Assembly: GCA_008534395.1 (NCBI GenBank)
Contig: SHMQ01000024.1
Coordinates: 1 to 32,502, forward strand
Direction: 5' to 3'
DNA from: Candidatus Acidulodesulfobacterium acidiphilum
Lineage (GTDB): Bacteria > SZUA-79 > Acidulodesulfobacterales > Acidulodesulfobacteraceae
Length of the DNA: 32,502 nucleotides
Below are positions 1,599-23,837 of the stretch, piece after piece; the first letter of the stretch is position 1, and every line of letters begins with the position of its first letter. The translations under genes were made by a program, and so were the position numbers. The notes below the pieces were generated by a model. It was not told the DNA's origin and searched no databases. It saw nothing but the letters and a program-made list of their open reading frames with translations.

Positions 1599-2492
1599 AT
1601 GTATAACGGTCTATTTATCAATTCAAACCAATCAGCCATCATTGCAACGGACAATCTTCAAAACACCAACAATTCTTTAGGACAGGCGTTAAACGAACTT
1701 TCCAGCGGCTTGCAGATAACCGGCGCTTGGGTCAATCCGGCAGGCTACGAAATAGCTCAGAGCTTAAACGCAACTACTTTAGGCATCAATCAGGCAACGT
1801 CAAACGCCAACAACGGAAACTCCTTAATTAACATCGCTTCCGGCGCTCTTTCTACCATACAGGGAATGCTTGGCACGATGCAGACGCTTGCGACCAACGC
1901 CGCAAACGGAACGAACAGTAGCGCAAACTTACAGGCGCTAAACAGCGAGTTTCAACAGCTTCAATCGGAAATTACGCAGATTGCGGGTTCTACGTCGTTT
2001 AATGGACTGCATCTTTTGAACGGTGGCGGAACCCTAACCACATTGGGTTCTACTTCTATTTCTGCATTTTCTTTCCAAATAGGTCCAAATGCCGGTACAA
2101 CTAACAACCAGATTTCAGTTTCGATACAGGGTGTTGCATCTAATCTATTAGGGTTAAATAATGGAACAAGTGTTCAATCTTCTCTGTCGCAGGTAAATTT
2201 GACCAGTTCTACTAACGCATTAACGGCTCTTTCTGCGGTTCAAGCGGCGGTTAATCAGGTAGCCGGCATAAGCGGTCAGCTCGGTTCTTACCAGAACAGG
2301 GTTACTCAGATACTTGGAAACCTTCAGACTGAAGGAACGAACACTCAGGCTGCATATAACAACATTATGGACGTAAATTTTGCTCAGGAAATGTCCCAGT
2401 TTACGTTGCTTTCTACTCTGGCTCAGTCCGGCGAAGCTATGCTTTCTCAGGCTTCAATGGTTCCGCAGGGACTTTTGACCCTGTTGAAATAA
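1599..2492 (+). CDS. fliC: Flagellin
   Basis: Structural subunit of the flagellar filament, secreted by the flagellar type III system. The N-terminal D0/D1 region has INSNQSAIIATDNL, LNELSSGLQI and the long coiled segment to about residue 140. The C-terminal D1/D0 region has IMDVNFAQEMSQFTLL, LAQSGEAMLSQA and the terminal LLTLLK. At 297 aa the variable central part is short, so D2/D3 are minimal, and it is rich in Ser, Thr and Asn, which are typical O-glycosylation sites. Odd point: the usual DDAAGLAIS after LSSGL.I is replaced by AWVNPAGYEIAQ, so this is a divergent flagellin. A good ribosome site (GGAGG at 1586) and a sigma-28 promoter precede it. flaG, fliD and fliS follow in the same direction, then glycosyltransferases, a common setting for glycosylated flagellins. 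Confidence 0.95.
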   Translation: MYNGLFINSNQSAIIATDNLQNTNNSLGQALNELSSGLQITGAWVNPAGYEIAQSLNATTLGINQATSNANNGNSLINIASGALSTIQGMLGTMQTLATNAANGTNSSANLQALNSEFQQLQSEITQIAGSTSFNGLHLLNGGGTLTTLGSTSISAFSFQIGPNAGTTNNQISVSIQGVASNLLGLNNGTSVQSSLSQVNLTSSTNALTALSAVQAAVNQVAGISGQLGSYQNRVTQILGNLQTEGTNTQAAYNNIMDVNFAQEMSQFTLLSTLAQSGEAMLSQASMVPQGLLTLLK

Positions 2493-2578: not shown

Positions 2579-2986
2579 ATGGACCAGTTATCGTTAAACG
2601 TAAATGCCGTAAATATTGCTAACGGCAATAATGCATCGGATGCGAATAATATAAATGGGTCTGCGGTAAATTCCAAAAATAATACAGCTAATAAAAATAA
2701 CGACAATGTCGCAAATAATACAAATATTTCCGCAAATAAAGCCAACCCGGCAAATAACAACGCCGGGAAAGAAAAAGAATTATCAAAACAGATAGAGTCG
2801 AATCTTAACCCGTCTCCTATGCTGTCTCAGGCAATGCTTTTTAAATGGGATGCAAGCGCCGGCGGCGCCGTCATTAACGTAGTAGATTTTAAAACCGGAA
2901 AAGTTCTGGCGCAGATTCCGCCTAATTCGGTTTTAAAAATGATGGCAAATTATCAAAAAGGTTCGATTTATAATAGTAAACTGTAA
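2579..2986 (+). CDS. flaG: FlaG-family flagellar protein
   Basis: FlaG proteins are small accessory proteins encoded between flagellin and fliD in many polar flagellates and influence filament length; the mechanism is not well established. The conserved part is the C-terminal third: LFKWDASAGGAVINVVDF, TGKVLAQIPP, then a short helix (about residues 85-130), matching the FlaG pattern of V.D..TgeviRQIPp. The N-terminal 65 residues are low complexity, almost entirely Asn, Ala, Lys and Ser, probably disordered. The ribosome site is weak (AAAAGAAGTG before ATG 2579). Position between fliC and fliD supports the call. Confidence 0.85.
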   Translation: MDQLSLNVNAVNIANGNNASDANNINGSAVNSKNNTANKNNDNVANNTNISANKANPANNNAGKEKELSKQIESNLNPSPMLSQAMLFKWDASAGGAVINVVDFKTGKVLAQIPPNSVLKMMANYQKGSIYNSKL

Positions 2987-3048: not shown

Positions 3049-4509
3049 ATGTCGATAACTTCAACAGGCAGTAGTCTGACGCCGAGCTCATATCCTAATC
3101 AGGGTCTTATAGTTATGGGAACCGGTCCTGAGTCGGGTATAAATTATTCCGCAATTCTAAAAGCGCTTGACCAAGCGTTGTCTGCCCCTATTACATTGAT
3201 GCATGCCCAGGAAACGCCGCTTAATAATCAGCTTTCGGCTTGGCAGTCTATAGGTTCCGATATTTCCGCTTTAAGTTCGTCGGCTTCGGCTCTCGGTCAG
3301 CCGTCTTTGTTTCAATCTTTTACTGCAACTTCAAGCGATACTTCAGTTGCAACTGCTCAGGCTTCATCTTCGGCAATTCCCGGAACATACAATGTAACCG
3401 TTTCAAGCCTCGCAACTACGGGAGTAATTGCTTCGCAAGGTGTGGCGGCTACTTCTACGGCTGTAGCAAGCTCAGGTTCCACTGGGACGTTTAATATAAC
3501 TGTTAACGGAAATACGACAGACGTTGCATTAAACTCTACCACAGGTTATACTTTGGCAGATTTGGCGCAGACTATAAATAATTCCAACGCGGGCGTTACT
3601 GCTTCCATTATCAACAACGGCGCAACATCCGACCCTTATCAACTTGTTCTTACAAGTAATAATACCGGAACCAATTATGCGCCTTCCGTTACGGATAATC
3701 TTACCGGTGGAACGTCCCTTACTTTTACGACTACTCAATCTGCCGCAAATGCAAAATTAAGTTATGAAGGTATAAGCATAACAAGCCAATCTAATACGGT
3801 AAAAAACGTTATTCCAGGCGTTACTCTAAGTCTTGCTTCTACAGGTTCGACCACTATAACGGTGGGTTTAGATACGCAAACCATAGACAATGCCGTGAGC
3901 AGTTTTATTTCGGCATACAATAAAGTAATAGGCGACGTGTCCGCACAGAATACCGTAACTTCGAGCGGTTCCGGAAACACGAAATCGGAAACTTTAGGTC
4001 CTCTCGGCGGCAATGTTTCGCTGACTAATTTGGTGAATAATCTTTATAGCTTTATAGGTAGCGAAGCGCCCGGTCTTTCCGGAAATGCCGGTCTTGCTTC
4101 TACTTACGGAATTACGCAAAGTTCAAGCGGTTCGGGAAAACTTCAGCTTAACGCTTCCGCGTTAAATAATATGCTGACGTCGGACCCTCAACAGGTTCAG
4201 CAGTTTTTCAGCGCATTAGTAAACGGTTCGCCCACTGCTGGCGGTGCTTCTCAACCCGGCGGTATGACGAATTTTTTAAATACATATACCAATTCTGCAA
4301 ACGGCGTGGTGCAATTCAGCGAGGCGCAAATTAACACGCAGCTTACGAATATGAATAACCAGATTGCGCAGATGCAGGCTAATGTTCAGACTCAGATGGG
4401 CATGTACACCAAGGAGTTTTCTAATTTGGAGTCTTACATAGGGCAGATGCAAACTACAAATTCGGCTATGACCAGCAGCATAAAGCAGATGATTGCCCAA
4501 GGCGCTTAA
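3049..4509 (+). CDS. fliD: Flagellar hook-associated protein 2, filament cap
   Basis: Forms the cap at the filament tip that folds and inserts flagellin. The N-terminal FliD domain is visible at about residues 20-115 (GINYSAILKALDQAL, LNNQLSAWQSIGSDI, IPGTYNVTVSSLA). The C-terminal FliD domain covers about 235-485 (LSYEGISITSQSNTV, VIPGVTLSL, TIDNAVSSFISAYNKVI, DPQQVQQFF) and ends in a coiled coil rich in Gln, Met and Asn with the usual terminal ...QQIA-like helix (SSIKQMIAQ). The middle is Ser/Thr/Asn rich, like the flagellin here, and could also be glycosylated (inference). Length 486 aa is normal. An AGAGG ribosome site precedes ATG 3049. fliS follows after 43 nt. Confidence 0.93.
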   Translation: MSITSTGSSLTPSSYPNQGLIVMGTGPESGINYSAILKALDQALSAPITLMHAQETPLNNQLSAWQSIGSDISALSSSASALGQPSLFQSFTATSSDTSVATAQASSSAIPGTYNVTVSSLATTGVIASQGVAATSTAVASSGSTGTFNITVNGNTTDVALNSTTGYTLADLAQTINNSNAGVTASIINNGATSDPYQLVLTSNNTGTNYAPSVTDNLTGGTSLTFTTTQSAANAKLSYEGISITSQSNTVKNVIPGVTLSLASTGSTTITVGLDTQTIDNAVSSFISAYNKVIGDVSAQNTVTSSGSGNTKSETLGPLGGNVSLTNLVNNLYSFIGSEAPGLSGNAGLASTYGITQSSSGSGKLQLNASALNNMLTSDPQQVQQFFSALVNGSPTAGGASQPGGMTNFLNTYTNSANGVVQFSEAQINTQLTNMNNQIAQMQANVQTQMGMYTKEFSNLESYIGQMQTTNSAMTSSIKQMIAQGA

Positions 4510-4552: not shown

Positions 4553-5005
4553 ATGGATGCAATTTCAAAATACGAAAACATAAACGTCAATACAGTTGAC
4601 CAGGGAACGCTTATAATAATGGCTTATGAAGGCGCTATAAATTTTATAAAAGAAGCAAAAGAAAGACTTGCGCAAAACGATTATGCAGGCAAGTCGATAA
4701 ATATATCCAATGCCGTTTCCATTATTAATGAACTCAATGCACGTCTCAATATGGAAAAAGGCGGGGAAACGGCAAAAAATTTGAACAAACTTTATACTTT
4801 TTTGTCAATCCATCTGACGACGGCAAATCTTAAGAAAGATGCGCATAAACTTGACGAGTCGCTTAATATATTACAAAACCTTTTAAACGGTTGGAAGATT
4901 ATAATAGAAAAAGACAGGAAACAGAAACAAAATAGCGCGCTTTCAAACGTTAATGCAAGTATTTCTAATAAACCGGTTTCAGGCGGTATTGCAGTATCCG
5001 CTTAA
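4553..5005 (+). CDS. fliS: Flagellin export chaperone FliS
   Basis: Binds the C-terminal helices of unpolymerised flagellin in the cytoplasm and delivers it to the export gate. Typical FliS features: a short N-terminal YENINVNTVDQGTLI segment, MAYEGAINFI, the helix with SIINELNARLNMEKGGE, LNKLYTFLSIHLTTAN, and the last helix ending NGWKIIIEK. About 25 residues beyond the domain are Ser/Asn rich and unstructured. A good ribosome site (AAGGAGG at 4535-4541) precedes the ATG. It is the last canonical filament gene; the glycosyltransferase row begins 37 nt downstream, suggesting co-transcription with the filament genes (inference). Confidence 0.92.
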   Translation: MDAISKYENINVNTVDQGTLIIMAYEGAINFIKEAKERLAQNDYAGKSINISNAVSIINELNARLNMEKGGETAKNLNKLYTFLSIHLTTANLKKDAHKLDESLNILQNLLNGWKIIIEKDRKQKQNSALSNVNASISNKPVSGGIAVSA

Positions 5006-5042
5006 CGCGATATATCCTCTTGATGAATGAATAATATACTTA

Positions 5043-6656
5043 ATGAATATTTTTATATTCCAAACGAGACGAATAGGCGATTTTTTTCAATCGGTTCCGC
5101 TTATCGAGTCTTTAGCCTCTGCAGACGGAGACGAAGCAAAAAAAATTGATATACTGATAGACGAAAGTATATACGACATAAAAAATATTTTTAATACAGA
5201 AATAAATTTTATTACTTACGAAAGCATCTTGAATCCCCTCGGTATTTCCGTAAAATGCTTAAATAAATTTGATAAATTTTTATTAGATTTAACTTCTGAA
5301 TATGAACTTGCCGTAAACTTAAACTATGATTTTGCTAATTCCCTTTTTTTAAATTTTTTTAAAAATCAAAAGAAAGGTTTTATTGTTTTAAATAAATCAA
5401 AAAAAACCGCAGAATCAATTTCAAGAAGCGGTCCCGCAAACTATCTTTTTAATATCGTAAAAAACCGAAGCCTAAACAGGATAAATATTACCGATATATA
5501 TTCTCTTATAGGCAGCGAAAAGACGGCCGAAATAAAAACTTCGTATGGCATTATAAAATTAAAAAAGAAAATCGAAAGCAAAAAAAAACGATTAAGCGGC
5601 GAACCCGTTAGGATTTGCATTTCTATAGGAGCAACGCATCAGAAAAGAATCTGGCAATCCGAAAATTACGCAAAGCTGATAAGCCTGCTTTCTCTAAATT
5701 TAAACTGCGAAATAATAATTGTAGGAACTCCAGAAGAATCGTCCGCCGCCGAAGAAATAAAACAAAAACTGCCTGACGGCGTAAATATTATCGATTTGAC
5801 CGGAAAGACCAACCTAAACGAACTTATTTATCTTATAAAAGACTTCGATTTAATTATTGCGTCGGATACCGGAACTTTACATATAGCGCAGATTTTTAAC
5901 GTTCCGTCTGTTTCTTTATATACCGGCAACGCCAATTTTTACGAAACCGGTCCTCACGTAGAAAATTCTTACGTGATACACTCCGTTATACAATGTTATC
6001 CGTGTATGCAGCATGAACCATGCCGCTTTAATTACGCATGCAAAAACGATATAAACCCCGAAGACGTTTTTAACCTTGCCCTTATGCAGATAATCAAAAA
6101 TAAACTGCATTATTCTTTTAAAGAACAAGAAATTAAATTTTCCGACGTTAAAAAAAGAGTTATCGCAAACGTAAAAAAAGGGAATTTTTCGGTCGCCGTT
6201 TGTAAGCATTTAAGCTCTGTCCACTTTTATCCGTTATATAAAAGAAAAATATCTAAAAACGATTTTGCTTCTGAAATATTAAAATTCTGCTGGATTAACG
6301 TACTTTCAAAAAATAGCTTAAAAATTGATAAAAATAATGTTTTGAGATATACGAACAAATATTATAAAATAGACGAAAGTCTTCTAAATTCTTTAATAAA
6401 AGAAATTAATTTCATAAAAGGCGTTTTTGAAAATGCTTCTAAATCATTTAATAAAGAAGATAAAAATGATAAATACGCCGCTTTATATTTTGAAAAATTC
6501 AAAAACTCCGTGAAATCTCTCGGTTTAAACTATAGTTATTTTAAACTTGCATGCGATTATTTTATAGACGAATTAAACTTATCAGGTGCGCAGAAAAGTT
6601 TTAACGATATAATTTTGCTTTTAGATAATGCTATAGATATTTTAAAAATGTTTTAA
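5043..6656 (+). CDS. GT9-family glycosyltransferase with C-terminal extension
   Basis: Belongs to the heptosyltransferase-type GT9 family (GT-B fold), which moves heptose or a related sugar from a nucleotide donor. N-terminal Rossmann half: FQTRRIGDFFQSVPLIESL. Donor-binding half: ICISIGATHQKRIWQ, then DLTGKTNLNELIYLI, the family motif SDTGTLHIAQIFNVPSVSLYTGN, and a four-cysteine stretch CYPCMQHEPCRFNYAC common in this family. The last 180 or so residues are an extra Lys/Asn-rich helical region without a recognised domain, so the protein is much longer than the usual 350 aa. No clear Shine-Dalgarno before ATG 5043. The place right after fliS, rather than in an LPS core cluster, argues for flagellin glycosylation (inference). 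A second GT9 follows at 8498. Confidence 0.85.
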   Translation: MNIFIFQTRRIGDFFQSVPLIESLASADGDEAKKIDILIDESIYDIKNIFNTEINFITYESILNPLGISVKCLNKFDKFLLDLTSEYELAVNLNYDFANSLFLNFFKNQKKGFIVLNKSKKTAESISRSGPANYLFNIVKNRSLNRINITDIYSLIGSEKTAEIKTSYGIIKLKKKIESKKKRLSGEPVRICISIGATHQKRIWQSENYAKLISLLSLNLNCEIIIVGTPEESSAAEEIKQKLPDGVNIIDLTGKTNLNELIYLIKDFDLIIASDTGTLHIAQIFNVPSVSLYTGNANFYETGPHVENSYVIHSVIQCYPCMQHEPCRFNYACKNDINPEDVFNLALMQIIKNKLHYSFKEQEIKFSDVKKRVIANVKKGNFSVAVCKHLSSVHFYPLYKRKISKNDFASEILKFCWINVLSKNSLKIDKNNVLRYTNKYYKIDESLLNSLIKEINFIKGVFENASKSFNKEDKNDKYAALYFEKFKNSVKSLGLNYSYFKLACDYFIDELNLSGAQKSFNDIILLLDNAIDILKMF

Positions 6657-6670
6657 GAAAATATAAATAT

Positions 6671-8491
6671 ATGAATAATTCAAATATGAGCCGTAACGAT
6701 TTAAATTTCGAGATAGTTCAAACCAAAACTATATCCGCTCCGTCTTTTAAGATTAACGGAATAACCGTTCATTCCGTTTACGACCCAGTTTCCGAAGCGC
6801 AGAAATGGGCGGCTCAGGTTATGGATAGGATTAATTTGGAAGGAATACCTGATAAAATTATAATTTTTGGTATGGGAGCGGGTTATCATATAAAAACTTT
6901 AATTGATTTTTTAAAAAAAGATGAAAAAGAAATAAGAATAGAAGTCGTCGAACCTGCTCAAGAATCTATTGAATTTATAAAAAGCAATTTCGATATTTTA
7001 GAATTAATTTCTAAAATAAACGTTACAGTTTTAGACCGCATAAGCGAAAACCTTTATCTAGACGCTTCCGCCGTTTCCCAAAAACTTGAACTCGACAAAA
7101 GCAACATATTATTCTGTGAACTGCCTCCGTATAAAAAAATATTTTCCGAAGAATATGCGCTTATACATAAACTTCACGGAATTAACCAGTTCTTTACACC
7201 GTCTTCTTTCAGGGTTTTAGTAGTTCAGCCGATGTACGGCGGTTCTTCCACAATAGGAAACTATTTATATTCGGCTCTTTTAAGCCTCGGCTACGATGCA
7301 AAAATACTTGATTTTTCAAAATTTTACGATGCATATAAATATATGGGCGAATTTACCACCAACGAAGACCATGTAAATTCATTAAAGCAGAGCCTTTTTA
7401 ACCTCATGTCCGAAGCTCTTCTTTCTTCGGTTTTTAACGAACCGCCGGACTTGGTTATTTTTATGGCGCAGTCGCCATCCAGCGAAAGAACTTTGCTTAA
7501 ACTAAGAAGCATGGGAATTAAAACTGCATACTGGTTCGTAGAAGATTTTAGGACGCTTACATACTGGAATACTATAGCAAAGAACGTCGATTATTTCTTT
7601 ACTATACAAAAAGACGATTTTTTTGCGGAACTTAAAAATATCGGCGCAGACAACTATCATTATCTTCCATTAGCATGTCTTCCAAATTTTCATAAAAAAA
7701 TTAACGAAATAAATGAAGATGACAGGATAAAATACGGTTCCGACATAAGTTTTGCCGGAGCGGGTTATTATAACAGGAAAAACGTCTTTGCCCAGCTTGT
7801 CGATTTTAATTTCAAAATATGGGGAAGCGACTGGCATGTCGGATTGCCATTAAGCCTGTTCATTCAGGAAGGCGGCAAGAGATTTACGGAAGAAGAAGCA
7901 GTAAGAATATATAACTATTCAAAAATAAACATAAATCTTCATTCTTCCATGTGGCATTGGGACATAAATCCAAACGGCGATTTTTTAAATCCGAGAGTTT
8001 ACGAAATTTTAGCCTGCGGAGGTTTTCAGCTTGTGGACAGGCGCAAGTATATGTATGGAGTTTTTGAAGACGGAAAAGATTTGGTTGTTTTTGATACGGT
8101 GGACGACTTAAGAAAAAAAATAAAGTACTATCTTGCCAACGAAGAGGAAAGATTGTCTATAGCCGCTCACGGCAGGGAAACGGTAGTTAAAAATCACACT
8201 TACGAACGTCGCGTCCGCGAGATGATGAGTATAATACTTTTAGATTCATACGAACAGATAAAATCTAAACTTGAAACCAGAAAGCAAAATATTTCCGAGC
8301 TTTTAAGAGAAACTGAAGGAAATAAAGAGCTTCACGACCTTATTATGCAGTTTTCTGACAAGAAATCGCTTTCCATAAGAGATATGGCAGAGAGCATAAA
8401 AAGCGGTAAGGGCAGGTTGTCGAAATCGGAAGCTATGATTTTAATGTTATGGGCGATAAAAACAAAATTAGTAAAACTCGAAGGGCTGTAA
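6671..8491 (+). CDS. CgeB-type glycosyltransferase with Maf-like N-terminal domain
   Basis: Two parts are visible. Residues about 1-170 have a Rossmann-like segment (PDKIIIFGMGAGYHIKTLI and RIEVVEPAQESIEFI), resembling the N-terminal domain of Maf/FlaG-associated motility accessory factors that modify flagellins. Residues about 175-540 resemble the CgeB / DUF3880 plus Glyco_trans_1_2 transferases: FRVLVVQPMYGGSSTIGNYL, PDLVIFMAQSP, YWFVEDFRT, SDISFAGAGYYNRK, NININLHSS-like and the family hallmark NPRVYEILACGGFQLVD. The rest is a helical tail. Predicted role: transfer of a sugar onto a protein or glycan in the cytoplasm. It is packed between two GT9 genes (14 nt and 6 nt gaps) on one transcript. 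Transferase family is fairly sure; the Maf relation and the flagellin target are inference. Confidence 0.8.
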   Translation: MNNSNMSRNDLNFEIVQTKTISAPSFKINGITVHSVYDPVSEAQKWAAQVMDRINLEGIPDKIIIFGMGAGYHIKTLIDFLKKDEKEIRIEVVEPAQESIEFIKSNFDILELISKINVTVLDRISENLYLDASAVSQKLELDKSNILFCELPPYKKIFSEEYALIHKLHGINQFFTPSSFRVLVVQPMYGGSSTIGNYLYSALLSLGYDAKILDFSKFYDAYKYMGEFTTNEDHVNSLKQSLFNLMSEALLSSVFNEPPDLVIFMAQSPSSERTLLKLRSMGIKTAYWFVEDFRTLTYWNTIAKNVDYFFTIQKDDFFAELKNIGADNYHYLPLACLPNFHKKINEINEDDRIKYGSDISFAGAGYYNRKNVFAQLVDFNFKIWGSDWHVGLPLSLFIQEGGKRFTEEEAVRIYNYSKININLHSSMWHWDINPNGDFLNPRVYEILACGGFQLVDRRKYMYGVFEDGKDLVVFDTVDDLRKKIKYYLANEEERLSIAAHGRETVVKNHTYERRVREMMSIILLDSYEQIKSKLETRKQNISELLRETEGNKELHDLIMQFSDKKSLSIRDMAESIKSGKGRLSKSEAMILMLWAIKTKLVKLEGL

Positions 8492-8497: not shown

Positions 8498-10210
8498 ATG
8501 AAAAATGTAATCATACTGAATCTTACCCGCATGGGCGACCTTATACAGTCCACCGCTCTTTTTAAAAAAATTAAACTAACCTATCCGGAAAGCCGAGTTA
8601 AACTTATAATTTCTAAAGAATTTGCGGAAATTGCCCCTTTTCTTCCGTATGTCGATGAGATTAAACTTATAGACGTTACCGGACTATCCGAACTTTTAAA
8701 AGCAAACAATTTCGACTTAACTATAGATGTTCTAAAAGCTTTAGGCGCCATGTTCGACGGTATCTTGCAGGTAAATTACGACCTTGCGGTAAACCTTTCT
8801 CACGATGAATTCAGTGTTTATTTCCTTTATATTTTAAATTCGTTAAAAAATATAGGCATTTCTGTAAACCGCGAAGGAATTATAATATCTAACGACGAAA
8901 TGATAGCTTATATATTTTCTGCAGTTAAAAACAGAAAAGTAAGCGTTTTAAATCTCGTCGATCTATACGAAAGAACTATCAGGACGAATAAAACCCAATA
9001 TAAACAACACGTGAATAAAATTTTTTTAGACGCAAAAAAAAATAATGAAGAACATGATGGAAATAAGGAGTTTGAAGTTTTAAAAAAATACGGTATAGAA
9101 GAAAGCGATAATATCGTTTCTTTTGCCATAGGAGCATCGACTGAGCTAAAAAAATGGCGTTACGACTATTTTGCGGAACTGGCCAAAATGTTTTTAAACG
9201 GCGACATTAAAACTAAAGTAGTTTTACTCGGAGCAAAATATGACGTTAAAGCAGGCGGTTTTATAGAAAGCATAGTCGCAAACGAAAGACTTATTAATCT
9301 TACCGGAAAAACCTCGGTTGCCGACCTTGTTTATATAGTACGGCGCTCAAATCTTCTTATAACACACGATACAGGAACAATGCATATAGGAGTTGCCGTA
9401 GGAACTAAATTAATCGTTATTTATACCGGAAACGTTGGTTTTTTAGAAACGGGACCATATGCCGAAAACCGTTTGCTCGTAATTCCCGATATTGGATGTT
9501 TTCCATGCGATTTTAATTTAAAATGTTTAAATCCGGTTTGCCAGGGATTAATTAAACCTGAATATATTTATGATATGTCTTTGATGGTTCTCGAAAAAGA
9601 AAACGACTATGCCCAAAAACTGTCCGATTATAAGAATAGCGGCATTATTCCTTATCTGTCCCGTTTTGATTCTAAAAAATTTATCGATTATCTGCCGGCG
9701 GTAAAAATTAAGTTAAATTTTAAAGATTTAAAACTTAAAATACTAAAATTATCTCTAGAACATTATTACGAAGGAGATTTTTGGAAGATAGACGAAAACG
9801 AAATAGAACTTTTTCTTGACTGTTTTGAGGGCATAGAATATAATCTTAGCTTAGATATCAAGGAAGAATTAAAGTCCGTTGAAAAGCTTATCGCTCTATG
9901 CAAAAGAGGTATGTCGGAGACAAAAAAAATGATAAATTTGGCTCTTAAAGACCCGTTTAATTCAAAAAAAATAGAAGAATATACCTGTAAAATAAAATCT
10001 ATAGATTTTGAATTAAAATATTTATCTTCGGTTTATGACGACTTATCTCTGTTTAACCAGATTCACGTCATAAACCAGAACAGTTCGGTCAGCTACGATT
10101 TGTTCGGTTTTGCCTTAGATTCTCTTAAAAATTATTCCATGTATAAGCTCCAATTAAATATATTTAAAAAGGTTTCGTTAATTTTTTTAGATAAAATCAA
10201 AAATTTATAA
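8498..10210 (+). CDS. Second GT9-family glycosyltransferase with C-terminal extension
   Basis: Paralogous in layout to the gene at 5043: N-terminal NLTRMGDLIQSTALFKKIK, donor half with VSFAIGASTELKKWRYDYFAELA, LTGKTSVADLVYIV, HDTGTMHIGVAVGTKLIVIYTGN, and the cysteine cluster CFPCDFNLKCLNPVC. It too carries a long helical C-terminal region (about residues 380-570) rich in Lys and Leu. Starts 6 nt after the previous stop. The two extended GT9 proteins around one CgeB-type protein suggest an old duplication and sequential addition of sugars on the same acceptor (inference). Exact donor cannot be read from the sequence. Confidence 0.85.
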   Translation: MKNVIILNLTRMGDLIQSTALFKKIKLTYPESRVKLIISKEFAEIAPFLPYVDEIKLIDVTGLSELLKANNFDLTIDVLKALGAMFDGILQVNYDLAVNLSHDEFSVYFLYILNSLKNIGISVNREGIIISNDEMIAYIFSAVKNRKVSVLNLVDLYERTIRTNKTQYKQHVNKIFLDAKKNNEEHDGNKEFEVLKKYGIEESDNIVSFAIGASTELKKWRYDYFAELAKMFLNGDIKTKVVLLGAKYDVKAGGFIESIVANERLINLTGKTSVADLVYIVRRSNLLITHDTGTMHIGVAVGTKLIVIYTGNVGFLETGPYAENRLLVIPDIGCFPCDFNLKCLNPVCQGLIKPEYIYDMSLMVLEKENDYAQKLSDYKNSGIIPYLSRFDSKKFIDYLPAVKIKLNFKDLKLKILKLSLEHYYEGDFWKIDENEIELFLDCFEGIEYNLSLDIKEELKSVEKLIALCKRGMSETKKMINLALKDPFNSKKIEEYTCKIKSIDFELKYLSSVYDDLSLFNQIHVINQNSSVSYDLFGFALDSLKNYSMYKLQLNIFKKVSLIFLDKIKNL

Positions 10211-10248: not shown

Positions 10249-10890
10249 ATGAAACTATATATCGACGGGCATTTAAACGATTCCGTTTTTAGCGCCGGCA
10301 GTATGTACGACATTTTATACGGCGGCAGCATAAAAAGTTATATTCCGGAAGGCAAAGTAATAAAAAGCATAGCGATAAACGGAACTCAATACGACGATTT
10401 AATGCTGGACGCCGACAAATCAAAGGCTTTTAAACTTGGAGACGCCGACGAAATTAAAATAACTACGATGAATCAGCTTGAACTTTTAAACGGTTCGTTA
10501 AACGCCGCTATAAAGTTTTTAAACGAATTTAAAGCAGGAGTAGTAAAAACTACCGATGAAATAAGATGGGGAAACAGTAATGCAGGATTTAAAAATTTTT
10601 CGGCATACCTAAGCGGACTTACTATGTTTATTCAAATCATGGAAAAAATATCCCAGTTTTTAAAAATTGATTATAACAACCTTGTCTATGACGGCAAAAG
10701 CGTCCAGTCTTATTTTAACGACCTTGAAAAAATTCTTGCTTCGGTTCTTTCGACACAGGTGAAACAGGATTACGTTCTTCTTGCCGATATAGTCGAGTTC
10801 GAACTTAAGCCTAATATAGATATCTGGAGCAATATTTTGAAAGATATGAAAACTAAAATAAACGGCGTTTCCAATGCAGAAGGCAAATGA
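10249..10890 (+). CDS. Unrecognised 213-aa protein in the glycosylation operon
   Basis: I do not recognise this family. The first 75 residues alternate short strands and turns (MKLYIDGHLND, GKVIKSIAINGTQYDDLM, LGDADEIKITTMN), compatible with a small beta-rich domain; the remaining 135 residues look like four or five amphipathic helices (LLNGSLNAAIKFLNEFK, FSAYLSGLTMFIQIMEKISQFL, VQSYFNDLEKILASVL). No signal peptide, membrane segment or cysteine. Strong ribosome site (CGGAGG) before ATG 10249. Its 3' end overlaps the sulfotransferase by 17 nt, so it is translated with the glycan-modifying genes. It could be a scaffold, adaptor or chaperone for flagellin and its modifying enzymes, but that is only a guess from position. 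Confidence 0.75.
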   Translation: MKLYIDGHLNDSVFSAGSMYDILYGGSIKSYIPEGKVIKSIAINGTQYDDLMLDADKSKAFKLGDADEIKITTMNQLELLNGSLNAAIKFLNEFKAGVVKTTDEIRWGNSNAGFKNFSAYLSGLTMFIQIMEKISQFLKIDYNNLVYDGKSVQSYFNDLEKILASVLSTQVKQDYVLLADIVEFELKPNIDIWSNILKDMKTKINGVSNAEGK

Positions 10891-11881
10891 CCTAAAAAAG
10901 AAGAGGATTATTGCTGTAATAGGCGTTCAGAGGAGCGGCACAAGTGCAATTACAAGAGGGCTTCAAGTTTTAGGAGTCAATCTTGGAAATTTTTATGAAC
11001 ATGACATAGTTAGCCCCGATAACGAAAAAGGGTTCTTTGAGGATTTAGAAATAAGCCATTTAGATGTGAACATGCTTAATTCTATTGGCTATACTTGGGA
11101 TAATCCAGCTTTGCCGATATTTGACGATAACACTAATCTGGTCTTATCGGCTTTTTATCCTATTGCCGCAAATATTGTTAATAGGCGATTTGAAAATACC
11201 GATTTGTTTGGCTTTAAGGACCCCCACGCAGTCAAATTATTGCCGTTTTGGAATGAAGTGTTTAAGGATGCAGGGATAGAAGTATCATATATCATTGCCT
11301 GCCGTAATCCTTTAAGCGTAATAAAGTCATCGATGCATAATAGAGAAGGTTTTGACTCAGTCAAAGGATTTTATATATGGTTAGGAGCAACATTGGCTTC
11401 TTTGATTTATTCGGCAGGTTATAACCGCATAGTCGTCGATTACGACGAGTTGATGAAAGATCCTGGAAAACAGCTCGGAAGAACGGCAGAACGTTTAAAT
11501 TTGAAGTTCGACGCAGATAGTCCCGAATTTATAGAGTATAAAGAATCATTTTTGAGCGAATCCCTCAGGCATTCAAGTTTCGGGATAGACGATCTTGCCG
11601 CAAATGCGGAAGTTCCGTCTAAAGTTGCCGAACTTTATATCTTACTTAAACGCATCGCAATGGATGAAATTTCTATAGATAGTGTCGAAGCGGCGGCAAA
11701 GATTAATAAAATTTATTCATGGATTGAGGAACTCCGCTCCACGCTTTTATATATGCAGGCGCAATTCGACGCATTGCTTTATTTAAAAAAAGAACTTGAC
11801 AAAAAAGACGCAAAAATTGCGGAATTAACGGAATCTTTAACATCTTGTAATTCGCGCCAAAGCGGAAACTTGGAAACATGA
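10874..11881 (+). CDS. PAPS-dependent sulfotransferase family protein
   Basis: Sulfotransferases move sulfate from PAPS to a hydroxyl or amine. The 5'-phosphosulfate-binding loop is IAVIGVQRSGTSAI (about residues 14-27) and the 3'-phosphate-binding region is SYIIACRNPLSVIKSSMHNR (about 138-157), with FGFKDPHAV between them, as in bacterial carbohydrate sulfotransferases. A helical tail with LKKELDKKDAKIAELTESL forms a short coiled coil. The start at 10874 overlaps the preceding gene by 17 nt; the stop overlaps cysC as ATGA. Pairing with an APS kinase means the operon makes its own sulfate donor. Likely substrate: the glycan built by neighbouring transferases (inference). Confidence 0.85.
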   Translation: MQKANDLKKKRIIAVIGVQRSGTSAITRGLQVLGVNLGNFYEHDIVSPDNEKGFFEDLEISHLDVNMLNSIGYTWDNPALPIFDDNTNLVLSAFYPIAANIVNRRFENTDLFGFKDPHAVKLLPFWNEVFKDAGIEVSYIIACRNPLSVIKSSMHNREGFDSVKGFYIWLGATLASLIYSAGYNRIVVDYDELMKDPGKQLGRTAERLNLKFDADSPEFIEYKESFLSESLRHSSFGIDDLAANAEVPSKVAELYILLKRIAMDEISIDSVEAAAKINKIYSWIEELRSTLLYMQAQFDALLYLKKELDKKDAKIAELTESLTSCNSRQSGNLET

Positions 11882-12489
11882 AAGCAGAAAATCATTCAAG
11901 CCCGTGTATCGTTTGGCACGAACATAAAATAAAAAGGAGCGACAGGGAAAAACTTAAAAACCAGAAAGGGTGTGTTTTGTGGCTTACCGGGCTCAGCGGA
12001 TGCGGGAAGAGCACCATTGCTAATTTACTTGAAGAGCGTTTAAACGAAAAAGGCTATCATACATATCTTTTAGACGGGGACAATATAAGGCACGGGCTCA
12101 GCAGGGGGCTGGGGTTTTCCGAGGAGGACAGGTTGGAAAACATAAAAAGAGTAGCCGAAGCCGCCAAACTTTTCGTAGATGCAGGGATTATCGTTATAGC
12201 ATCTTTTATTTCGCCTTTAAAGAAGCACAGGCAGACGGCAAAGGAGATAATAGGGTCCGGCGACTTTGTCGAAATATTTATAGACACTCCTTTTCACGAA
12301 TGCGTTAATAGGGATGCAAAAGGTTGGTACAAAATGGCGTTAAACGGAGAAATAGAAAGCTATACCGGCGTCGATTCTCCTTACGAAAAGCCGGAAAAGC
12401 CGGATGTACATATAAAGACGGACGGTATCAACGCCGAAGAGGGCGTTGGCAGAATTATAGAAATATTATCCGCTACAAACAAACTTTAA
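11878..12489 (+). CDS. cysC: Adenylylsulfate (APS) kinase
   Basis: Phosphorylates APS to PAPS, the donor for sulfotransferases. Canonical motifs: P-loop LTGLSGCGKSTIA (about residues 36-48), DGDNIRHGL, the lid/helix LGFSEEDRLENIKRVAE, IASFISPLKKHR, FIDTPFHECVNRDAKG and the substrate-loop GVDSPYEKPEKPD. At 203 aa it is a complete stand-alone enzyme, not fused to CysN. The start overlaps the sulfotransferase stop (ATGA). No cysDN or assimilatory sulfate genes are nearby, so its role here is most likely dedicated PAPS supply for the adjacent sulfotransferase rather than cysteine synthesis (inference from context). Confidence 0.95.
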   Translation: MKAENHSSPCIVWHEHKIKRSDREKLKNQKGCVLWLTGLSGCGKSTIANLLEERLNEKGYHTYLLDGDNIRHGLSRGLGFSEEDRLENIKRVAEAAKLFVDAGIIVIASFISPLKKHRQTAKEIIGSGDFVEIFIDTPFHECVNRDAKGWYKMALNGEIESYTGVDSPYEKPEKPDVHIKTDGINAEEGVGRIIEILSATNKL

Positions 12490-16651: not shown

Positions 16652-17863
16652 ATGAAAAAAAATTTATGCATAGGCGCAATTTTTAAAAATGAATATCCTT
16701 ATATTTTAGAATGGATTGCATGGCATAAACTATGCGGTTTTGATAAAATTATTATAGCCGATAACGGTTCGGACGATGGAACCAGAGAGCTTTTGCAGGC
16801 ACTCGACGATTTAGGTGAAATTAATCTTTTATATCAACCAAAAATTTCTGCCGTCAGTACTTCTCAATTTACAGCATATGACAGGATTGTAAATCAATTT
16901 TGCCCTGAATGTTATGCTATTTTATTTATCGATGCAGATGAATTCGTTGAAAACGACGAAGAAGAATTAAGTTCCGTTTCTGAAACTATTCTTCGTTTAT
17001 TCGATATTCCCAATGTCGGCGCTATAGGTTTAAACTGGAGAACTTACGGTTCTTCGGATAAAATGGTTTACGAAGACGATTACGTGGTACGAAGGTTTAC
17101 CTGGCATAAAGACGATGAAGACAAAGGCTGTTCTGTGAATAATCATTTAAAAACTGTTTTTATCAGCAAAAATTACGCGAAGGCTCATTGTCATTCCCCG
17201 CAAATATATAGCGGCAACTATATTTATTCAAACGGTGAAAGATTGACGTTTTGTGACATTAGGTTTGGCTGGTCAAATCCTCCAGAAACATATATTAAAA
17301 CAGGTGTATCTTATAAAATTTGCAAATGCCATCTTAGAGTGAATCATTATGTTATAAAGTCTTTTCAGGAATATACAGAACGCAAATCTTTAAGAGGACG
17401 CGCAGATACAGTCGCCACAGATCCAGAATATAATGATAGAAATATTGTTTTTTTTAAAAATAATGATTTTAAAGATTGCAATCGTTTAATTTCCGAAAAA
17501 AAACTTTTACTTTTAGATGAAAAAGTAAAATTACTTAAAGATAAAATAAATATATACGGATTTTACGATAAATATATAGGTGCTATAGAATCGGTAAGTC
17601 AATTAGGTTTTTCCGGCTGGATAGCAAACGTAAACGGTTCATCTGAAAATATTAAAATTAATGTTTTTGTAAATGGAATACATATTGGTTATACGACCCC
17701 TTGTTTTTATAGAAGAAATCTTATAAATCAAGGCATTTCTATCGATGGCATAGCTGGTTTTAGATTTTCTTTTCAGACCTTGTTAAAATCAGGAGATGAA
17801 GTTTTAATACAAATACACGGAAGATTATTTCAATTTTCAAATGCAAAATATATAATGGTCTAA
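16652..17863 (+). CDS. GT2/GT92-like glycosyltransferase with C-terminal beta domain
   Basis: N-terminal domain (about residues 1-280) matches the Glyco_tranf_2_4 type: IGAIFKNEYPYILEWIAWH, the donor-site IADNGSDDGTRELL, and the metal motif FIDADEF near residue 93, followed by RFTWHKDDED and a His-rich part (HCHSPQIY). The last 80 residues (GFSGWIANVNGSSENI..., VFVNGIHIGYT, IAGFRFSFQTLL) form an all-beta domain found attached to various glycan enzymes, probably for binding. No obvious Shine-Dalgarno before ATG 16652, 93 nt after the previous gene. A long palindrome overlaps the stop codon, so transcription may end here. Likely acts in the same glycan pathway (inference). Confidence 0.82.
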   Translation: MKKNLCIGAIFKNEYPYILEWIAWHKLCGFDKIIIADNGSDDGTRELLQALDDLGEINLLYQPKISAVSTSQFTAYDRIVNQFCPECYAILFIDADEFVENDEEELSSVSETILRLFDIPNVGAIGLNWRTYGSSDKMVYEDDYVVRRFTWHKDDEDKGCSVNNHLKTVFISKNYAKAHCHSPQIYSGNYIYSNGERLTFCDIRFGWSNPPETYIKTGVSYKICKCHLRVNHYVIKSFQEYTERKSLRGRADTVATDPEYNDRNIVFFKNNDFKDCNRLISEKKLLLLDEKVKLLKDKINIYGFYDKYIGAIESVSQLGFSGWIANVNGSSENIKINVFVNGIHIGYTTPCFYRRNLINQGISIDGIAGFRFSFQTLLKSGDEVLIQIHGRLFQFSNAKYIMV

Positions 17864-17978: not shown

Positions 17979-18941
17979 ATGAGTTTAGCAAATTATAATC
18001 AAAATAATCTTTATTCAAAAATAAATTCAAAATATGAGTTAAAATTAAATGATATTGATGTAAATAATAAAAATTCATCACATTCAATTATTGTTGACTT
18101 AATAGCTGAAAACTCAATAATACTTGACGTAGGATGTTCCAGCGGCTATTTAGGCAGATGGTTAAAAATAAATAAAAACTGCAAAGTATATGGAATCGAC
18201 ATTAATCAAGATGCATTGAATTACGCAAAACAAGAATCGGGTTATGATGATGTATTTTTAATTGATTTAGATGAACTGAAAGGCGAAGGTATAAAAAGAC
18301 TTAAATATATGGATGTAGCTTTTGATTATATCGTTATGGCAGATGTTATAGAACATTTAAAAAATCCCGCTGTTATATTAATGCTATTATCAGAAAAACT
18401 TAAATTGTATTCAAATTTTATAATAAGTATTCCGAATATTGCCAATGCCGATATTATTTTAAATCTTATTGAAGGCAAATTTAATTACGGAGATTTTGGC
18501 TTATTAGATAGAACTCATTTAAGATTTTTTACTAAAAATTCTTTTATAGAATTTATAGAATCTATAAATCAAAGTGAATCATTAGGTGATTGCAAATTTC
18601 AGATAGATTTTATTGCAAACACAATCTATATATCAGATTTTATTAAAAATGTAATTTCAGAAAAACTAATATTATATAATTTGTTAAAGTCAGCTAATCC
18701 AGAGATAGATGTTTTACAAAATATATTTGCATTAACAAAAGTTAAGAAAAATGACAAAGTTTTAAACTTAAAAGAAAAATTTAATATAAAACCACTTGAC
18801 AAAATTTTTAATGTAATTAATGAGTTAATTAAAATATCACAGGATTGTGAAAAAGAACTATATAATAGTAAATTTTTAATCAAAGAATACGAATCAAAAA
18901 TTCAACTATTGCAAAGTATCATCGATCATAATTTAAAGTAA
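17979..18941 (+). CDS. Class I SAM-dependent methyltransferase
   Basis: Methyltransf_23-type enzyme. SAM-binding motif I is ILDVGCSSGYLGRWL (about residues 47-61), motif II YGIDINQDAL, and the post-motif DYIVMADVIEHLKNP about 120-134, then SIPNIANADIILNL and LLDRTHLRFFTKNSF, a combination typical of small-molecule or sugar O-methyltransferases. The C-terminal 120 residues are helical and end in a likely coiled coil (CEKELYNSKFLIKEYESKIQLL). It is visibly more AT-rich than the transferases before it and lies after the palindromic terminator, suggesting separate acquisition. Ribosome site not obvious. Could methylate the sugar chain; target not shown by sequence. Confidence 0.85.
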   Translation: MSLANYNQNNLYSKINSKYELKLNDIDVNNKNSSHSIIVDLIAENSIILDVGCSSGYLGRWLKINKNCKVYGIDINQDALNYAKQESGYDDVFLIDLDELKGEGIKRLKYMDVAFDYIVMADVIEHLKNPAVILMLLSEKLKLYSNFIISIPNIANADIILNLIEGKFNYGDFGLLDRTHLRFFTKNSFIEFIESINQSESLGDCKFQIDFIANTIYISDFIKNVISEKLILYNLLKSANPEIDVLQNIFALTKVKKNDKVLNLKEKFNIKPLDKIFNVINELIKISQDCEKELYNSKFLIKEYESKIQLLQSIIDHNLK

Positions 18942-19589: not shown

Positions 19590-19942
19590 ATGAGCAAAAA
19601 CCGCAGAAATTTTTCGCCGGAATTCAAAACGAAACTAGTCATAGAACTCTTAGAATCCGGCAAGACTCTAAACGAGATAGCTTCCAAATACGAAGGCTTC
19701 CCAAAAGCCTTATAACTTGGAAGAAGCAGTTTATCGAGAACGCATCAATAGTCTTCGAAGAATCCGTTCCGTCCAAGAAATACAAAGACGAGATTAAAGA
19801 AAAAGAACAGAAAATAGAGGAATTAGAGAAAACTTTAGGTAGAACGGTTATGGAAAGTATAAAAGCAAAATGCTTTTATGTGGCTGTCAAAAAAAGTCGA
19901 TATAAAAGCCAACGGCTTGGCTTTTATGTCGGGCTTGATTAA
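19590..19942 (+). pseudogene. IS3-family orfA, frameshifted
   Basis: Starts at ATG 19590 after AAAGGGG with MSKNRRNFSPEFKTKLVIEL, LESGKTLNEIASKYEGFPKA, then hits TAA at 19713. Shifting by one base at the AAAA of 19703-19706 restores LITWKKQFIENASIVFEE and a leucine-zipper-like KEKEQKIEELEKTL, as expected of the helix-turn-helix orfA protein. The A7G run at 19889-19896 is the usual programmed -1 slippery site, but with this run length the orfB frame is +1, not -1. Both defects fit single-base losses in homopolymers, so the element may be dead, unless these are sequencing errors. Confidence 0.7.
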
Positions 19943-20777
19943 ATTAAGCCTCGTGGACCCTGAGCTCCCGATATCCGTAACGAGGCAGTGTGCGTTATTG
20001 GAAATAAAAAACAGGACTTCCCTATATTACAAAAAGGCGGTGAAACTGATGGATCAATCCATATTGAACCGGATAGACGAAATATATACGGAAAGCCCCT
20101 ATTACGGATACCGCCGCATCCATCAAGTCTTAATCCAGGAAGGCAGGACCGTAAATCCCAAGCAGGTGCTTAAGCTAATGCGCATATTGGGCATTCAGGC
20201 ATTATATCCCAAAAAGAAGAGAAATACTTCTATTGCCGACGCCAATCACGCAAAGTATCCGTATCTCTTGAAAGGACTTAAGGTAACGAAACCCAATCAG
20301 GTATGGGCGTCAGATATAACGTATATTCGCCTAAACAACGGCTTTTCATATCTTTGCGCCATAATAGATTTGTATACCCGCAGCATACTGTCATGGAAGC
20401 TATCCTTCGCTATGGACGAAAGCCTTACGGTATCGGTTTTAAACGAAGCGTTGTCCGTTTACGGCAAACCCGAAATATTTAATTCCGACCAGGGTTCTCA
20501 ATATATGGCGCAAGGCTTCATAAATACGTTAACAAAGCATAACATATCCATATCTATGGACTCTAAAGGTCGTGCTATCGATAATATATTTATCGAAAGA
20601 TTCTGGCGCACTATTAAATACGACAACGTCTATCCTTCGGGTTATGAGGCGCTAAAAGACGCAAGAGCAGGGATAGAAAAATATATCCATAAATATAATA
20701 ACCACAGGTTGCGTTCGTCTTTGGGCTATAAACCGCCGCTAAAGGTCTATAACGAATATTTTGAAAAAGCGGCATGA
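19878..20777 (+). CDS. IS3-family transposase orfB (DDE integrase domain)
   Basis: 299 aa. The HTH_21-like start (VTRQCALLEIKNRTSLYYKK, SPYYGYRRIHQVLIQEG) is followed by the rve integrase core: WASDITYIR (first Asp), NSDQGSQY (second Asp), and DNIFIERFWRTIKYD with the catalytic Glu, then YNNHRLRSSLGYKPP. All three catalytic acidic residues are present. Normally made as an OrfAB fusion by frameshifting; see the orfA entry for why that may fail here. The ATG at 19878 lies inside orfA and is a convenient, not proven, start. Confidence 0.9.
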   Translation: MWLSKKVDIKANGLAFMSGLIKLSLVDPELPISVTRQCALLEIKNRTSLYYKKAVKLMDQSILNRIDEIYTESPYYGYRRIHQVLIQEGRTVNPKQVLKLMRILGIQALYPKKKRNTSIADANHAKYPYLLKGLKVTKPNQVWASDITYIRLNNGFSYLCAIIDLYTRSILSWKLSFAMDESLTVSVLNEALSVYGKPEIFNSDQGSQYMAQGFINTLTKHNISISMDSKGRAIDNIFIERFWRTIKYDNVYPSGYEALKDARAGIEKYIHKYNNHRLRSSLGYKPPLKVYNEYFEKAA

Positions 20778-20795
20778 ATAAGAGGAGCTAAATGC

Positions 20796-20810
20796 GGGGG
20801 CACATCCCCC
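20796..20810. other. G5/C5 hairpin downstream of the transposase
   Basis: GGGGG (20796-20800), CACAT loop, CCCCC (20806-20810), followed by TGACCCCTGA. Possibly a terminator-like or repeat-derived hairpin at the end of the IS element; no T-run follows. Confidence 0.35.
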
Positions 20811-20894
20811 TGACCCCTGAAAGACAATATAAATAAGTATGAATAAAAGGAATAAGAAAACTAAAAAAGATGTCTTGACAATGGGTGCAGTATA

Positions 20895-21154
20895 TAAAGG
20901 CATATTACGTAAAAAATATTAATAATGAAATTCCAAGAACCCATGACTTGCTTAAAATAGCAATGCTTGCAAATATCGATTTATCTGAAAACCGCAAAGA
21001 TATTTTGCAAAATATTACCTTATTTAATATAGAAGCAAGATATGAAGAAAGTAAAAGAGATTTTTATAAAAAATGTACGAAAGAATTTGCCGAAAAAAAT
21101 ATTGAAATAATTATGGAGTTGCGGATATGGTTGATGAAAAAAATAAAAGCCTGA
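20895..21154 (+). pseudogene. HEPN-domain gene, 5' end removed by IS3 (copy 1)
   Basis: Encodes KAYYVKNINNEIPRTHDLLK through WLMKKIKA, identical to the HEPN gene at 24126-24385 but without the first helix. A GTG at 20885 within the IS end could start a short chimeric reading frame. The 3' end overlaps the MNT gene by 28 nt as in copy 2. Unlikely to give a functional toxin. Confidence 0.75.
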
Positions 21155-21450
21155 TTTTAGATTCAATAAATAAATATTTAACCGAATTGCAAAAAAACGA
21201 TATAAATATTGTAGGGGCATATCTGTTTGGTTCTTATTCAAAAAATAACACCGACAAATGGAGCGATATAGATTTAGCTATTTTAACCGATAAATTTATC
21301 GGCGATAGTTTTGATTTTACTCTTCTTCTTATGAAAATAGCCAGAAATATAGATTTTAATATAGAGCCTCACCCGTATATTGCCGATGAATTCAACAAAA
21401 ACAATCCATTTGCGGCTGAAATAATAAAAACAGGCATCAGAGTGCTATAG
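21127..21450 (+). CDS. MNT-type nucleotidyltransferase (copy 1)
   Basis: 107-aa minimal nucleotidyltransferase: GAYLFGSYSKNNTDKWSDIDLAIL contains the GSx...DxD active-site motif (about residues 28-50). In MNT/HEPN modules the MNT partner acts as antitoxin, in characterised MntA by AMPylating the HEPN toxin. ATG 21127 overlaps the HEPN 3' end. Identical to 24358-24681. Its own HEPN partner here has lost its start, so this copy may be surplus antitoxin. Confidence 0.85.
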   Translation: MVDEKNKSLILDSINKYLTELQKNDINIVGAYLFGSYSKNNTDKWSDIDLAILTDKFIGDSFDFTLLLMKIARNIDFNIEPHPYIADEFNKNNPFAAEIIKTGIRVL

Positions 21451-21613
21451 ATAATTTTATCTAATCCTAAACTCATTTACATTGTTTACGGGTCATCTCT
21501 TTATTATTATACTACTTATAAAACCAATAAAATATAATGACTTTAATCCTAAAATTGCCGATAGAAATCTTTAAACAGGTTTTAAAGCTATATGAACAGG
21601 CCATTCAAGCAGC

Positions 21614-21642
21614 TTGATTTTGCATAAAAATTATATTAAAAT
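21614..21642 (+). promoter_or_regulatory. Possible vapB promoter (copy 1)
   Basis: TTGATT at 21614-21619, 17-nt spacer, TAAAAT at 21637-21642, followed by ATGCA-TATAATT-TGCAT, a short dyad that could be an autoregulatory operator. Identical in copy 2 at 24845-24873. Match is by eye. Confidence 0.35.
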
Positions 21643-21692
21643 TAATGCATATAATTTGCATAAATTTAATAATATATAGACGGGGTATATAT

Positions 21693-21890
21693 ATGCGCAC
21701 TACAATCACGATAGACAAAGATATAATCGACGTTCTTCTAGAAGAAACACATGTAAAAAGCAAGGCCTCTGCCGTTAAAATAGCAATCGATTCTTACCTA
21801 AAAAGAAAGAAAGCGGAAAAAATAAAATCTATGAAGGGCAAGCTCGATTTCGACATGACGGCCGACGAGATAAGGCATTATGAGAGATAA
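21693..21890 (+). CDS. VapB-type antitoxin (copy 1)
   Basis: 65 aa from ATG 21693, chosen because GGGG lies before it and it starts with the ribbon strand MRTTITIDKDIIDVLLEET; an upstream in-frame ATG (21645) lacks a ribosome site. The strand-helix-helix pattern followed by KASAVKIAIDSYLKRKK is that of VapB/Arc-type antitoxins (often annotated as type II antitoxins with DUF2191). The acidic tail (DFDMTADEIRHYER) would wrap the PIN toxin. It overlaps vapC by 11 nt, but vapC is cut in this copy. Identical to 24924-25121. Confidence 0.8.
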   Translation: MRTTITIDKDIIDVLLEETHVKSKASAVKIAIDSYLKRKKAEKIKSMKGKLDFDMTADEIRHYER

Positions 21891-21936
21891 TAAAATACTG
21901 GTCGATACATCGGTCTGGATAGACTATTTATTATAA
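21880..21936 (+). pseudogene. vapC fragment, first 17 codons (copy 1)
   Basis: Reads MRDNKILVDTSVWIDY, then the duplication ends and LL-stop follows. Only the first catalytic Asp of the PIN domain is left. The intact version is at 25111. Confidence 0.85.
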
Positions 21937-21946
21937 GAAAACGAAA

Positions 21947-22012
21947 AATAATGGGGGACAGATTTATTTATTCTCTCATTCCCGCCTGCGTTTGACGGTT
22001 CTTATATTTTTA
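21947..22012 (+). repeat. Dispersed repeat with tail
   Basis: AATAATGGGGGACAGATTTA core then CTCTCATTCCCGCCTGCG and TTTGACGGTTCTTAT. Lies 18 bases after the breakpoint of vapC copy 1 and abuts the stop of the minus-strand gene at 22010. Confidence 0.8.
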
Positions 22013-22231
22013 TAAAAATTTTTTATGTATTTTTTTTACAAATGATTTATCTCTTTTTTTAGTCTTTCCGGCAGGCAATACGGATATGGAAGATGCGATA
22101 TGAAAACCGTTCCATTCCTCGTTGTCTAATGGATTCCAGTTAAATATATCGATTAAATCTTGTTCGGTATAAGCTATTTTATTGCATTTTTTATTTATAG
22201 TTTCTTTGGGAACTTCAATATTATTTTTCAT
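22010..22231 (-). CDS. Unrecognised small protein
   Basis: 73 aa from the ATG at 22231 (minus), preferred over the ATG at 22255 because AAGGGG lies 7 bases before it. Sequence begins MKNNIEVPKETINKKC and has TEQDLIDIFNWNPLDNEEW and a very basic tail (KTKKRDKSFVKKIHKKF). No family recognised. Size, basic tail and place among toxin-antitoxin genes make a small antitoxin-like or toxin-like role possible but unsupported. Its last codons abut a dispersed repeat. Confidence 0.5.
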   Translation of the reverse strand: MKNNIEVPKETINKKCNKIAYTEQDLIDIFNWNPLDNEEWNGFHIASSISVLPAGKTKKRDKSFVKKIHKKFL

Positions 22232-22279
22232 ATTTTGCCCCTTTTTAATTTTCATTTATTTTACAATATTATTATACGA

Positions 22280-22320
22280 AATAATGATGTCACGAAATAA
22301 TAGGAACAGATTTATTTTTT
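22280..22320 (+). repeat. Dispersed repeat, degenerate, overlapping the hepT 3' end
   Basis: ATAATGATGTCACGAAATAATAGGAACAG-like double core followed by ATTTATTTTTT. On the minus strand it encodes the last eleven residues and stop of HepT. Confidence 0.65.
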
Positions 22321-23071: not shown

Positions 23072-23265
23072 ATTTTATATTTTATTTGTTATTTTTATCA
23101 GTAATTTTTAATATTATACCTTAAGTTACCTTTATAAATTTAATTTTCTATATTCCATCTTTAGCGGAAATATAGATTTTATTATATTATATAATGAGAC
23201 AATTAATAGTCTCTAATAATGATTTATGGTTATATTATATCTTATTTTATATTTTAATATCAATA

Positions 23266-23465: not shown

Positions 23466-23545
23466 AAATTAAAAAAATTAAAAATATAATCGAAAAAGAT
23501 TATGATAAATTCAAAGACGCATGGAAAAATCATAAGGAAGACTGA
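23459..23545 (+). pseudogene. 3' remnant of a DUF4160-type gene
   Basis: The frame ending in TGA at 23543 encodes YQIKKIKNIIEKDYDKFK then DAWKNHKED, like the C-terminal helix of DUF4160 proteins, which are usually encoded just before DUF2442 as here. Everything upstream has been replaced by the dispersed repeat cluster. Fragment is short, so the family call rests on context. Confidence 0.45.
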
Positions 23546-23753: not shown

Positions 23754-23837
23754 AAATGCAATAAAGGAATAAAAGTGCATTATAAATTTATAAATAAATT
23801 TTTATTATGATATAATCATATTAAATTAATATTTAAT

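Follow-up and report, generated by a model that had tools for sequence, protein, structure and literature searches.

Why should a sulfotransferase (ST) gene, together with a gene for an APS kinase (cysC), lie in a row of flagellar and glycosyltransferase genes? The question is raised by a 32,502-nucleotide stretch of the Candidatus Acidulodesulfobacterium acidiphilum genome (hereafter the window), in which genes for a flagellin, a FlaG-like protein, a FliD-like protein, FliS, a GT9-family glycosyltransferase (GT9a), a DUF3880 glycosyltransferase, a second GT9 enzyme (GT9b), the conserved protein ORF213, the ST, CysC, a triple-GT2 protein, a further glycosyltransferase and a methyltransferase all run in the same direction (Table 1). 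The best explanation, which we consider probable, is that a flagellar glycan undergoes PAPS-dependent sulfation, with the APS supplied by sulfate respiration. The respiratory ATP sulfurylase (Sat) would make APS, the island CysC would phosphorylate it to PAPS, and, prior to export, the cytoplasmic glycosyltransferases of the island would build on flagellin, or else on the FliD cap, a sugar to which the neighbouring soluble ST would transfer sulfate from PAPS.

Table 1. Features of the flagellar glycosylation island in the window, with the evidence on which each name is based
Feature	Position	Strand	Evidence
flagellin (predicted acceptor)	1599..2492	+	NCBIfam flagellin models ≤ 160 bits, under their equivalog cut-offs; 22.6% Ser+Thr
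flaG-like	2579..2986	+	position and conservation in islands; name by inspection
fliD-like flagellar cap protein (alternative acceptor)	3049..4509	+	position, conservation, composition 29% Ser+Thr; name by inspection
fliS, flagellin export chaperone	4553..5005	+	PF02561, 117.4 bits
GT9-family glycosyltransferase a (GT9a)	5043..6656	+	PF01075, E 2.2e−23
Glyco_trans_1_2/DUF3880 glycosyltransferase, weak Maf N-terminal similarity	6671..8491	+	PF13524, E 1.5e−35
GT9-family glycosyltransferase b (GT9b)	8498..10210	+	PF01075, E 1.2e−19
ORF213, conserved island protein without assigned function	10249..10890	+	beta N-terminus and helical bundle (model)
sulfotransferase (ST), putatively PAPS-dependent, Sulfotransfer_3-like, soluble, 335 aa	10874..11881	+	PF13469 in family, motifs, Foldseek, hydropathy
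cysC, APS kinase (makes PAPS), 203 aa	11878..12489	+	TIGR00455, PF01583, PDB match
large protein with three GT2 domains, 1353 aa	12497..16558	+	PF00535, E 1.5e−74, three stretches
GT2_4/GT92-like glycosyltransferase	16652..17863	+	PF13704, E 4e−16
SAM methyltransferase	17979..18941	+	PF13847, E 5.2e−12; PF07021, E 5.6e−15

As the initial annotation had it, the row of glycosyltransferases begins 37 nt after fliS (5005 to 5043) and the ST and cysC reading frames overlap by the four bases ATGA; both details were confirmed, and the end of ORF213 additionally overlaps the start of the ST gene by 17 nt. In the family of the DUF3880 enzyme, Maf_flag10_N was matched in 9 of 13 members, a weak similarity (best E 6.9e−5). 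ORF213 had no Pfam match over the cut-off, but was kept in every island read across that stretch, with or without the ST; its structural model (pLDDT 72) predicts a helical bundle with weak structural matches that include FliS, making it a candidate glycosylation accessory protein or chaperone. Further downstream (19878–32110), the window holds a transposase-like ORF (19878–20777), followed by many short ORFs, among them PIN-toxin-like frames (25111, 26068, 26913, 30890).

The ST had been named a PAPS-type sulfotransferase from its GVQRSGTS and CRNPLSVIKSS motifs, and this naming is supported at the level of the family: Sulfotransfer_3 (PF13469) was matched in all 19 members at E ≤ 0.01 (best E 7.4e−7) and PF00685 in 13 of them, with the window protein alone falling just short of the PF13469 cut-off (24.5 bits against 27, residues 13–213). 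The P-loop-like GVxRSGTS and the CRNP..S motif are invariant across the 19 sequences, and we take them to be the PAPS-binding loops of sulfotransferases (the 5'-phosphosulfate loop R/K-S-G-T and the 3'-phosphate site with R, and S at +8). A PDB search with the single ST sequence gave no match, while a profile search reached E 0.026 at best, with a mouse sulfotransferase. AlphaFold, run with ten close sequences, gave a model of low quality (pLDDT 49), so we treat the fold evidence as supportive: the top 25 PDB matches returned by Foldseek for this low-confidence model were all sulfotransferases (best E 8e−3). No hydrophobic segment was seen in the hydropathy profile. Short of proof, the protein is very likely a sulfotransferase, and its motifs suggest that it would depend on PAPS.

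For CysC, identification as an APS kinase is secure at the sequence level (Pfam APS_kinase PF01583, 217.9 bits, cut-off 21.1; TIGR00455 apsK, 249.6 bits, cut-off 138.7; closest PDB structure, the plant APS kinase 3uie, E 1.2e−59), and the gene is complete, with the P-loop GLSGCGKS present in its translation. The genome encodes no other true APS kinase; a second APS-kinase match (L107:9046–10422) was rejected as a short match within a signal-recognition-particle-like GTPase. Searches of the same genome found no second Sulfotransfer_3 match and no member of the CysQ-type PAP phosphatase family. The sole ATP sulfurylase is a dissimilatory Sat, encoded in one cluster with dsrA, dsrB, dsrK and aprA (all five pass their NCBIfam cut-offs), and because it is the only one, the APS for CysC would most simply come from respiratory Sat and not from cysDN. 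The initial annotation had noted that cysDN and assimilatory genes were missing nearby, and had taken PAPS to be most simply made for this ST. cysDN was indeed not found within the window, and the second statement is favoured by the sole APS kinase and its conserved pairing with the ST; both need qualifying in that one PAPS_reduct-family gene exists on another contig, and the second also in that the APS source is the respiratory Sat. The PAPS_reduct-family gene (L107:6538–8838, G000:C1) encodes a 766-aa protein that combines an N-terminal Sulfatase domain (PF00884) with a C-terminal PAPS_reduct domain carrying CC..CxxC.

The comparison covered 30 genomes from six genera of one family, all those returned by a phylum-wide search; the close relatives of the window's genome are metagenome assemblies. 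Every resolved copy of the ST family (≥ 38% identity) lay within a flagellar island: in 14 islands the stretch with the ST also included fliS, while shorter ST contigs carried ORF213 or a GT9 gene beside the ST. CysC adjoined the ST in 12 of the 14 fliS-linked islands, and the fliS-GT9-ST-cysC neighbourhood of the initial annotation recurs across relatives; the exceptions were G022, which meets the contig end, and G012:C1, which has kept the ST, lost cysC and carries a 709-aa ORF in the place expected for it. Throughout the window's genus the order flagellin-flaG-fliD-fliS-GT9-GT-GT9-ORF213-ST-CysC-GT2 is repeated, with ORF213-ST and ST-CysC overlapping or at most about 50 bases apart. In a second genus (G002, G003, G004, G006, and also G005:C40, a contig that ends just past CysC) the pair stands before ORF213 and not after it, and the ST-CysC gap is 105–136 nt in G002, G003, G005 and G006. 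The linkage of the glycosyltransferases to flagellin, fliD and fliS is likewise conserved.

Presence and absence mostly go together. A true APS kinase was found in 16 of 17 ST-positive and in 2 of 13 ST-negative genomes (Fisher p 1.5e−5, uncorrected for kinship), the latter two being G001 and G025, whose cysC is of a capsule type described below. This count includes the short g1-like island contigs G005:C9, G007:C167 and G009:C69 of g2/g3 assemblies, which may be misbinned; G005 is positive even without its short contig, as its C40 island is native. Where islands without the ST could be read through this stretch (G001, G011, G014), CysC was absent too, and the pair has largely been gained and lost as a unit. 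In G001, a Fic-like 367-aa ORF (L126:11116–12219) occupies the site between GT9b and ORF213 at which congeneric genomes carry the pair. The island of G008 has no ST of this family and a CysC remnant whose start lies past the Walker A loop; there, an unrelated TPR-sulfotransferase is found together with this truncated cysC (L128:2321–3985 and 9468–9947), the only copy in that genome, so the coupling of ST and CysC is not absolute.

The ST gene itself has moved between islands. Five ST sequences from g1-like islands form a type B that shares about 44% identity with the window ST. In the ST tree they fall into one clade, with support 100/99. This grouping is rejected by the trees of the flanking DNA (AU p 1e−4 for ORF213 and 7e−4 for CysC), showing that the ST gene, and not cysC, was exchanged in islands that are conserved apart from it. 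G021 is a case in point: fliS and most of GT9a match the window at 95–98% identity, but its ST is of type B. The number of exchanges is uncertain, since two of the type B rows come from a short contig (L111) and from another genus's assembly (L119), and the three tree rows from possibly misbinned contigs (L035, L119, L036) were not counted in favour of vertical inheritance. Between the window and G019:C60 (L109), a block of about 4 kb (9.1–13.1 kb, with ORF213, ST and CysC) is near 100% identical, in surroundings of 89–94% identity upstream and 92–100% downstream, a pattern that points to recent recombination or to a chimeric contig.

Outside the phylum, plasmid-borne relatives of the ST (25–34% identity) lie, where their context could be read, mostly in surface-polysaccharide or glycan clusters; the Methylosinus relative is found among mobile-element genes, and a Desulfolutivibrio plasmid carries a related domain with cysC downstream. 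On an IMG/VR viral contig (L192:4788–8130), the ORF at 6994–8130 is an APS kinase fused to a sulfotransferase-like C-terminus and adjoins another ST-like ORF and a methyltransferase. This fusion and the copies outside the phylum support a functional pairing of the two activities, and the distribution indicates that, within the range of the search, the flagellar setting is particular to this lineage.

The polysaccharide context of these distant relatives speaks for another reading, in which the pair sulfates a different surface glycan (LPS or exopolysaccharide) and its location in a flagellar island is accidental; GT9 glycosyltransferases are of the LPS type as well. The initial annotation had named an occurrence of the pair mainly in LPS or capsule clusters as the finding that would count against a flagellar role. 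Within the phylum this was not what was seen, all resolved copies of the ST family lying in flagellar islands, although related genomes do have a genuine capsule-type cysC/ST cluster. Its cysC forms a separate lineage (51–54% identical). In G025 (L197:2288–7534) it stands with GDP-sugar genes, a Wzx-like protein (by inspection) and an unrelated 347-aa sulfotransferase, and in G001 with CysQ and a Wzx-like protein (by inspection), and five more genomes show the cysC-ST spacing of this type. In the capsule-type cluster CysC and the ST are both separate ones, the ST being unrelated, and a Wzx-like flippase is present, whereas in the flagellar islands examined hydropathy and a family scan of 10 neighbours recognised no flippase, polymerase or exporter. 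A hydropathy of KD 2 over 19 residues is reached by no protein of the window island; among the related islands tested, a single non-core neighbour (in G004) clearly reaches it. The families matched among the scanned neighbours were methyltransferase, nucleotidyltransferase, GDP-mannose-dehydratase-like, TPP enzyme, NeuB, GHMP kinase and glycosyltransferase. Islands with activated-sugar genes and without a recognised membrane flippase fit a cytoplasmic glycosylation of flagellin before export, as it takes place in Aeromonas (PMC4065374), and we consider a different surface glycan unlikely.

Direct sulfation of protein, on tyrosines of flagellin or FliD, would resemble the action of RaxST on its peptide, an enzyme that also uses PAPS genes, raxP/raxQ (PMC4216712). 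Many tyrosylprotein sulfotransferases appear in the Foldseek list, but this list was obtained with the low-confidence ST model, and glycosyltransferases and sugar-nucleotide genes are the genomic company of the ST, which leaves tyrosine sulfation improbable. That CysC serves assimilatory sulfate reduction and adjoins the ST incidentally is judged very unlikely. The PAPS_reduct-family protein on the other contig and the partial assimilatory pathway reported in Ca. Acidulodesulfobacterales (PMC6776010) would suit such a role. Against it, G014, G017 and G026 have the PAPS_reduct family without a true APS kinase, which argues against a dependence of this family on CysC, and cysC accompanies the ST whether the pair stands before or after ORF213. 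Moreover, the CC..CxxC of the reductase is presumably of the [4Fe-4S] type, able to use APS.

Sulfation of a flagellar glycan is therefore the reading that we retain, with the acceptor probably a glycan, located on flagellin, and sulfate predicted on the filament. The ST-CysC pair beside flagellin predicts a mass shift of +79.957 Da on flagellar glycopeptides of sulfate-respiring organisms and, if this is true, dissimilatory sulfur metabolism would be linked to surface decoration. The benefit may lie in surface diversification and in a negative charge that lasts at acid pH, and selection on the surface chemistry of the filament is suggested by the finding that islands have exchanged the ST. 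The account as a whole, in which the flagellar glycans of these bacteria, probably acidophilic sulfate reducers, are sulfated, APS is diverted from sulfate respiration, the ST gene acts as a diversity module that lineages swap without moving the PAPS-making partner, and the sulfate ester keeps filaments negative where carboxylate sugars are protonated, stands in our view about even. In Ca. Acidulodesulfobacterales, which are acid-mine-drainage bacteria, transcripts of fliC and fliD rank with the most abundant ones (PMC6776010).

No sulfated bacterial flagellin was found in the searchable literature, where sulfated motility filaments are archaeal. The archaellin N-glycans of Halobacterium salinarum are sulfated (VNG1056C/VNG1057C; PMC11980604), and the likeness is that of a motility filament bearing sulfated sugars by way of sulfotransferases, predicted here from genes alone; the archaellum and the flagellum, however, are not homologous structures, and glycosylation in archaea is N-linked. 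Loss of glycan sulfation had only a small effect on motility in Halobacterium (PMC11980604), which cautions against expecting a strong motility phenotype here. Like the flagellar glycosylation islands of the Aeromonas, Campylobacter and Clostridium types (PMC4065374, PMC13317340), the present one has soluble glycosyltransferases and sugar-nucleotide genes beside flagellin, fliD and fliS, and cytoplasmic modification is expected. It differs from them in having an ST with its own APS kinase, and in carrying GT9, GT2 and DUF3880 enzymes instead of their typical set of Maf and pseudaminic acid genes. The closest parallels in supply are RaxPQ-RaxST of Xanthomonas (PMC4216712) and NodPQ-NodH of Sinorhizobium, the latter described as a dedicated PAPS supply for a sulfotransferase by Roche et al. 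1991 as cited in PMC4216712. In both, going by that citation for NodPQ-NodH, sulfate activation genes serve one sulfotransferase that modifies an exported molecule, as would be the case here; unlike in these systems, only the APS kinase would be dedicated in the island, the ATP sulfurylase being the respiratory Sat, and the predicted target is a flagellar glycan.
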